Shown here: positions 2,123-4,327 of the stretch, piece by piece
Layout: every line of letters starts with the position of its first letter
Numbering within the stretch: the stretch's first letter is position 1
From: an archaeon
Lineage (GTDB): Archaea; Thermoproteota; Nitrososphaeria; Nitrososphaerales; JACAEJ01
Assembly (NCBI GenBank): GCA_024256285.1
Contig: JACGUG010000007.1
Location: 1-42,283, forward strand
Direction of reading: 5' to 3'
Length of the DNA stretch: 42,283 nucleotides
Program-made: the position numbers and the translations under genes
Notes under the pieces: generated by a model
What the model was told of the DNA's origin: nothing
Seen by the model: the letters and a program-made list of their open reading frames with translations, nothing else
Databases searched by the model: none

Positions 2123-2207
2123 TTGACACACTCAATAAGATTCAGATGAAGACTCTTAAGGTTTTGCTTACTTACCTTTTATCAAAAGGATTTTAAGGAG
2201 ATAGTAG

Positions 2208-2219
2208 GATTTTAAATTG
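2208..2219 (+). promoter_or_regulatory. TATA box for the tRNA-Ser gene
   Basis: The AT-rich element gattttaaattg lies about 20 bases before the first base of the tRNA, the spacing expected for an archaeal TBP site with a short 5' leader. No other candidate is closer. Confidence 0.55.
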
Positions 2220-2232
2220 CCGGGTTGGGATT

Positions 2233-2361
2233 GCCGGGATCGTGCTTGAGAAGACTTCTAACACCCCGTCGGCAGAGTGGACGAATGCGCAGGCCTTGAG
2301 ACTATAGAATGAAAGTCTGTGACCCTTCGGGGTCTCGTGGGTTCGAATCCCACTCCCGGCG
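2233..2361 (+). tRNA. tRNA-Ser(UGA) with two introns
   Basis: Acceptor strands gccggga (2233-2239) and tcccggc (2354-2360) pair perfectly, with discriminator G at 2361 and no encoded CCA. The T arm is gtggg-ttcgaat-cccac (2337-2353). The long variable arm is gaccc-ttcg-gggtc (2321-2334), so this is a class II tRNA. The D arm is gca...tgc (2272-2288) and the anticodon stem caggc/gtctg (2290-2294, 2315-2319). Removing 13 bases (2301-2313) leaves the loop CUUGAGA with anticodon UGA. A second insert of 30 bases (2241-2270) separates tRNA positions 8 and 9. It folds as a textbook bulge-helix-bulge: outer helix 2231-2234 with 2272-2275, 3-base bulge 2239-2241, central helix CGGG/CCCG (2235-2238 with 2265-2268), 3-base bulge 2269-2271, inner helix GUG/CAC. 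The anticodon intron has a weaker, relaxed central helix. Confidence 0.93.
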
Positions 2362-3643: not shown

Positions 3644-4327
3644 TTGCAACATCCCCTCTACGAACTTCATGGTCAGAGCTTGGACAAGAATTACAAACTT
3701 CAAATAGATACAAAGCAAAGGCATTACTTCGAGCAGAAGTACTTCGAGCTCTTCATCTTAGACGAGGATGGACGTAAGTTTCATCCACATGTATTCACGG
3801 GTATCTATAGTGCTGGCCGTAAATCATCGGGAATCAAAGGATGGATAGACGGGGATTACTATGAGAAGGTCTCATCTGATAAAGTGACTCTGAATCTTCC
3901 AGAGTTCGGGCTGGATGTCAAGCTCTTCAAGAAGATCGGTGACTTGATCCCCCATGGAGGGAGCCTGATGGTATCTTATGCGATGTTCTGGGGAGAGAGT
4001 GAAGTACATAAGAATACCTCTCGAGCCTTGGACTTGGGGGTGCCACCCATAGCCACTCCTATAGGATATCTGATCTTTCATGCCGGTTGCTGGGCAGGCT
4101 TCAAAGATTGGTATTTTCCAGAGGGAGGGAATGAAGGGCCGAAGAAACTTCAGGGATTCAAACCTCTCAATAGAGAGGATGCTCTTAGAAGGGCTGAAGA
4201 AACGATCAAGTTCCTCAAAGATTTCATCGAGAGAAAGGGAGATCGTTCTGATCTTAAGCTTACTGCTAAAGAAAGATCCAAAGAGATAATAGATGCCTTA
4301 CTGCTCACCTTTATTATTGACGCCTAA
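3644..4327 (+). CDS. DUF1122-like archaeal protein
   Basis: A 227-residue soluble protein beginning at a TTG. The segment PPIATPIGYLIFHAGCWAGF followed by KDWYFPEGGNEGPKKLQG resembles the hallmark of the archaeal DUF1122 family, whose function is unknown. The C-terminal third is a charged helical stretch (residues about 170-225). No catalytic motif, signal peptide or membrane segment is visible. It is a single gene with its own TATA box and lies 130 bases before gapN on the same strand. The family assignment is from memory of the motif. Confidence 0.75.
   Translation: MQHPLYELHGQSLDKNYKLQIDTKQRHYFEQKYFELFILDEDGRKFHPHVFTGIYSAGRKSSGIKGWIDGDYYEKVSSDKVTLNLPEFGLDVKLFKKIGDLIPHGGSLMVSYAMFWGESEVHKNTSRALDLGVPPIATPIGYLIFHAGCWAGFKDWYFPEGGNEGPKKLQGFKPLNREDALRRAEETIKFLKDFIERKGDRSDLKLTAKERSKEIIDALLLTFIIDA

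Follow-up and report, generated by a model that had tools for sequence, protein, structure and literature searches.

A gene for tRNA-Ser(UGA) in a Thermoproteota archaeon is interrupted by an intron between positions 8 and 9, and its 5′ leader contains a second copy of the 5′ strand of the acceptor stem. We regard this, with a probability of roughly 0.7, as a functional gene with two protein-spliced introns of the bulge–helix–bulge (BHB) type, in which the leader copy acts as a surrogate acceptor strand and thereby resolves a competition between the BHB and the acceptor stem. The window, the whole stretch of 42,283 nucleotides analyzed here, comprises one contig of a draft genome of 1.48 Mb (G000, 94.97% complete). 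The nearest named relative is Ca. Methylarchaceae HK01M, with 88% identity in the neighboring dihydroorotate dehydrogenase; HK01M has been described as Ca. Methanoinsularis haikouensis, in the order Ca. Methylarchaeales, and is a putative methylotrophic methanogen (PMC9478090). An earlier note on this DNA had described the two introns and the BHB, both of which stand, but had overlooked the second GCCGGG (2219–2224) that accompanies the intron, which ends eight bases upstream of tRNA position 1 and is complementary to the 3′ acceptor strand.

Table 1. Features of the tRNA-Ser(UGA) locus, in positions of the window
Feature	Position	Strand	Description
Exon 1	2233..2240	+	tRNA positions 1–8, GCCGGGAU; CGGG supplies the 5′ side of the central helix of the BHB
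Intron 1	2241..2270	+	30 nt, position 8/9, strict hBHBh′
Exon 2	2271..2300	+	Position 9 and D arm through anticodon UGA and position 37
Intron 2	2301..2313	+	13 nt, position 37/38, relaxed BHB
Exon 3	2314..2361	+	From position 38 through discriminator G73; includes UCCCGGC (2354–2360), the 3′ acceptor strand
Leader copy of the 5′ acceptor strand	2218..2224	+	U + GCCGGG; proposed pairing with CCCGGC + G73, 2355–2361
Spacer, leader copy to tRNA position 1	2225..2232	+	Length and sequence variable among relatives
TATA-like A/T-rich stretch around ATTTTAAGG	2187..2198	+	Kept in both congeners; weak, motif calls noisy

The 8/9 BHB and the acceptor stem exclude one another

Removal of the 8/9 and 37/38 introns restores a standard tRNA: ARAGORN called the resulting 86-nt sequence as tRNA-Ser(tga) with a complete cloverleaf, and made 0 calls on the unspliced sequence. 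The exon–intron boundaries given in the earlier note hold base by base, and the finding that it had named as counting against its reading, another intact tRNA-Ser(UGA), was not seen in this draft genome, where the other serine tRNAs found are GCU, CGA (two copies) and GGA.

The 8/9 intron folds into a strict hBHBh′ motif, as had been proposed, with a 4-bp central helix (CGGG 2235–2238 with CCCG 2265–2268), two opposed 3-nt bulges (AUC 2239–2241 and UCG 2269–2271) and flanking helices on the inner side (GUG 2242–2244 with CAC 2262–2264) and the outer side (G2233–C2273 and C2234–G2272). The predicted cuts lie two bases into each bulge. When the intron was shuffled, the central helix arose by chance in 3.7% of cases and the central and inner helices together in 0.15%. 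The exons are 98–99% identical to those of two congeners, and the intron differs among the three in sequence and in length (30, 30 and 35 nt) with the BHB kept in both relatives; this conservation is stronger evidence for the motif than the shuffle test. Since positions 3–6 (CGGG) pair with the intron and positions 1–2 pair with positions 10–11, neither the acceptor stem nor the D stem can form at the same time as the BHB.

The 37/38 intron fits the hBHBh′ motif only in relaxed form. The imperfect central helix noted earlier for this 13-base insert was seen again: by eye, 2 of 4 central pairs form in that register and 3 of 4, including a G–U, form one base over, and shifting the boundary by one base yields an identical mature tRNA. 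This intron is present in both congeners and missing from the other genera of the family that were examined. A weak BHB at 37/38 is what one might see in a silent or decaying copy of the gene, but we find that explanation extremely improbable, because this is the sole tRNA-Ser(UGA) found, its exons are conserved, and its introns have diverged yet remain structured in three species.

The leader copy accompanies the 8/9 intron

A pattern survey built on serine tRNAs, with the acceptor fixed as GCCGGG, found the 8/9 intron in about 36 Thermoproteota genomes belonging to nine families. Real cases numbered 30, from six families, among the 400 genomes surveyed within the order, and a set of 349 genomes of the phylum contributed six more in three additional families, after the remaining pattern matches had been set aside as coding sequence or, in one instance, as truncated by a contig end. 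The cases found are all tRNA-Ser(UGA). The position had been described as rare, and it is indeed uncommon, but its recurrence across nine families means that it is not singular.

The leaders of the other intron-bearing genes contain the same copy, separated from the tRNA by spacers of 1–26 nt. Of 33 tRNA-Ser(UGA) genes with the 8/9 intron, 32 have a leader that could form a helix of 7 bp or more with the 3′ end, versus 3 of 29 genes lacking the intron (Fisher p = 4e-13, calculated on relatives that are not independent, with kinship uncorrected); a first version of the count gave 20/29 with the intron and 1/31 without. The alternative that only the intron position is unusual, and that the leader matches by coincidence or through GC-rich background, starts from the observations that serine acceptor strands are GC-rich and that some intronless genes in GC-rich genomes match over 6–7 bp. 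We consider it very unlikely, since shuffling predicts leader matches of at least 6 bp in 5.9 of 33 genes, whereas 32 were observed, and AT-rich leaders carry them too.

Comparisons within genera show the copy in step with the intron. In genus g3, G004 and G006 have both the intron and the copy and G005 has neither, and in genus g45 the same holds for G141 against G114 and G180. In genus g38, G108 and G132 have both, and G080 lacks the intron as well as any GCCGGG copy, while in genus g16 the intron and copy of G032 contrast with an intronless G019 in which the match has decayed. Among the exceptions, the intron-bearing G674 (L164, outside the order) has a weak 4-bp leader match, and the intronless G017 (L045) has a perfect leader copy, which perhaps follows loss of the intron.

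Signs of selection on the pairing

The survey fixed the acceptor as GCCGGG, which leaves only position 7 and the flanks free to show covariation. There, base 7 of the copy and base 7 of the acceptor strand are A/A in 13 cases, G/G in 11, A/G once and other in 10. Eight cells changed on both sides, compared with a shuffled mean of 2.6, and 0 of 500 shuffles reached as high a value. The copy stops short of base 7 in the window's genus, in genus g4 of family f2 and in L164. In G049, where the copy reads GCUGGGA, pairing is retained through a G–U, and the displaced copy of family f2 (GGCGCCGG) has an 8-bp pairing that takes in G73 and the next two bases as well as the 3′ strand; elsewhere, too, pairing often reaches G73 and trailer bases. 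For the 20 pairs of relatives with the same spacing, the copy is identical throughout, as against 66% identity in the spacer and 72% in the 16 bases upstream. Many copies are followed by a base other than the conserved U8, which confines the resemblance to the acceptor strand.

These patterns bear on the possibility that the intron arose by tandem duplication of the 5′ end of the tRNA, leaving the leader copy as a scar without present function. Such an origin would account for the perfect copy retained by one intronless relative (L045) and, weakly, for the placement in the window's genus, where the copy sits roughly where an intronless 5′ end would lie relative to the TATA-like box. We nevertheless judge a functionless scar to be unlikely, because, from relative to relative, the copy stays constant amid drift in the spacer and the upstream sequence, its base 7 follows that of the acceptor, the pairing often extends to G73 and the trailer, beyond any copy of positions 1–7, and where the intron is missing the copy has disappeared or decayed. 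The TATA-like stretch itself hints weakly at a transcription start that coincides with the leader copy or lies just upstream of it.

Predicted energetics and a proposed order of processing

Because the 8/9 BHB needs the 5′ acceptor strand (positions 1–6), splicing and acceptor-stem formation compete, and we compared the predicted energies of the two conformers with natural, scrambled and absent leaders. Averaged over 28 genes, the BHB conformer minus the acceptor-stem conformer came to −4.3 kcal/mol for natural leaders, rising to +5.0 when the leader was scrambled and to +8.4 when it was left out, and the BHB conformer was favored in 26, 2 and none of the 28 genes, respectively; these values are 37 °C predictions that partly restate the pairing itself, and the absolute BHB probabilities are low for many genes. 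For the window gene, the predicted differences were −7.4 (natural), +0.6 (scrambled) and +2.7 (leaderless), and the predicted energies of the two conformers were −56.3 and −49.2 kcal/mol. The minimum-energy fold of the window gene also contained a pairing between the spacer and the T arm, which we discarded because the sequence for it is not kept in G002.

The leader copy probably holds the precursor in a splice-ready state. It would pair with the 3′ acceptor strand, usually together with G73, and so close a tRNA-like precursor, leaving the real 5′ strand free for the BHB while the copy substitutes for it. The (αβ)2 endonuclease would then cut and RtcB ligate, joining position 8 to position 9. 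Once the intron strand was gone, the real 5′ strand could displace the leader copy, and RNase P would then remove the leader and spacer, such that splicing would be ordered before 5′-end cleavage. We infer the actual pairing in the cell, the strand exchange and the processing order. In bacteria, pairing between the leader and the RCCA end slows RNase P (PMC9433436), and this hindrance fits a splicing-first order.

A tRNA-Ser(GGA) gene with an intron inside the acceptor stem

The same genome contains a tRNA-Ser(GGA) gene (L069; G000:C83, ∼3652–3805, + strand) with three introns, at 5/6 within the acceptor stem, at about 29/30 and at 37/38. The 5/6 intron forms a strict BHB with a central UGCC/GGCA helix and bulges GGA and AAG, and the leader carries a copy, GCCGGGG. 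Both the 5/6 intron and the copy are also present in G001, G002 and G006, and the intronless orthologs in G003 and G004 have no leader copy. In another family, G012 and G026 have the 5/6 intron and a leader copy with one A–C mismatch.

This gene also raises the question of whether the leader copy could be the real exon 1 of a longer intron, with the proximal copy being intronic, for its upstream GCCGGGG looks more complete than the interrupted copy. We rejected the leader copy as a true exon 1 since it lacks U8, a base that is missing after most leader copies. Moreover, in tRNA-Ser(UGA) it is the proximal copy with which the intron builds its strict BHB, and in tRNA-Ser(GGA) the 5/6 splice restores GCCGGGA exactly, so that we attach very little weight to this arrangement.

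Returning to the leader copy as a surrogate strand, we lean, with some reserve, toward a wider rule: archaeal introns in or beside the 5′ acceptor strand may be maintained only with a leader surrogate, which would form a strand-exchange switch that places splicing before RNase P, and intron and copy would be gained and lost as a unit.

Splicing enzymes of the host

Non-canonical introns had led the earlier note to expect a TACK archaeon with a heteromeric splicing endonuclease, and two subunit genes (PF01974/PF02778), catalytic and structural, were found in G000. The 208-aa protein is of the catalytic type, with Tyr, His and Lys at the active-site places (by eye), and is closest to the crenarchaeal catalytic-type subunits of solved structures; the 179-aa second subunit lacks the active-site His (by eye). 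In the 208-aa subunit, K-P-K aligns where K-P-R stands, a possible equivalent of the Crenarchaea-specific loop (CSL), and PMC12397907 links a CSL with a conserved Lys to broad specificity. With separate catalytic and structural subunits, the predicted endonuclease is of the (αβ)2 type. A gene for RtcB is present as well.

Relation to known systems

The text available from one review names non-canonical intron positions 20/21, 22/23, 25/26, 29/30, 30/31, 45/46, 53/54, 56/57, 59/60 and 3/4, followed by ‘etc.’, and cites the 3/4 acceptor-stem intron for Thermoproteales (PMC4090602); acceptor-stem introns are also mentioned in PMC12397907. The non-canonical introns of Thermoproteales and other crenarchaea are likewise of the BHB type, with an (αβ)2 enzyme and several introns per gene, but 8/9 and 5/6 are not among the positions that this review text names, nor does it describe a leader copy. 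For Thaumarchaeota genomes, 107 non-canonical introns were modeled in tRNAscan-SE 2.0 (PMC8450103), and 8/9 introns may well be among them, although the accessible portion of that paper gives neither positions nor a link to the leader. The 8/9 position itself may already be catalogued in the specialized literature on intron positions (Sugahara and co-workers) or in GtRNAdb. In the accessible passages of the open-access literature consulted (PMC4090602, PMC3218864, PMC8450103, PMC3293823, PMC12397907, PMC4033280, PMC3978253 and PMC4390854), no acceptor-strand copy in a tRNA leader is described.

Two other systems offer parallels. In split and permuted tRNAs, complementary leader or trailer sequences likewise determine the precursor fold presented to the endonuclease, but there the pairing forms the BHB between pieces, whereas here it would replace the acceptor stem on one linear transcript whose BHB lies elsewhere. 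In the bacterial leader–RCCA case, leader bases paired to the 3′ end likewise hinder RNase P, but they extend a normal acceptor stem, whereas here they would replace its 5′ strand altogether.

If the surrogate model is true, it accounts for an intron whose splicing motif can form only at the expense of the acceptor stem, assigns a structural role to the 5′ leader of an archaeal pre-tRNA and implies a set order of processing steps. The leader copy also provides a search rule for tRNA genes missed by ordinary finders and suggests a testable way for introns to be gained, namely duplication of the 5′ end of the tRNA.

Other tRNA genes

The tRNA-Ser(UGA) of G132 (L095) apparently has three introns (8/9, D arm and T arm), with a leader copy directly upstream. 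RF00005 matches in G037 that begin at model positions 7–10 were considered as acceptor-side introns and proved to be D-arm introns, and many tRNA genes of this one genome (L191–L197, family f9) carry introns there. In G415, a candidate Thermoproteales genome, there was no acceptor-side intron among the weak matches read.

A tRNA-Lys(UUU) gene of G000 (L021; G000:C43:21028-21136) has a leader, UGGCGGGUUCGA, that is also found in L234, L237 and L238 and is kept in family f1. This leader could pair over 9–11 bp with the 3′ end CGGGCCCGCC(A) in a gene without an acceptor-side intron, an observation that runs against the surrogate model.

The tRNA-Ser(CGA) genes L028/L029 and the tRNA-Cys genes L023/L024 are identical second copies, representing either two loci or an assembly duplication. 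On the minus strand of L011 (G000:C43, ∼1607–1645), just upstream of tRNA-Asp, lies a tRNA-like 5′ half (CCCTGGTAGTATAGTCCGGTCCAGTATGGGGCGCTGTC) that ends in the anticodon loop and is possibly a relic or the 5′ piece of a split tRNA.
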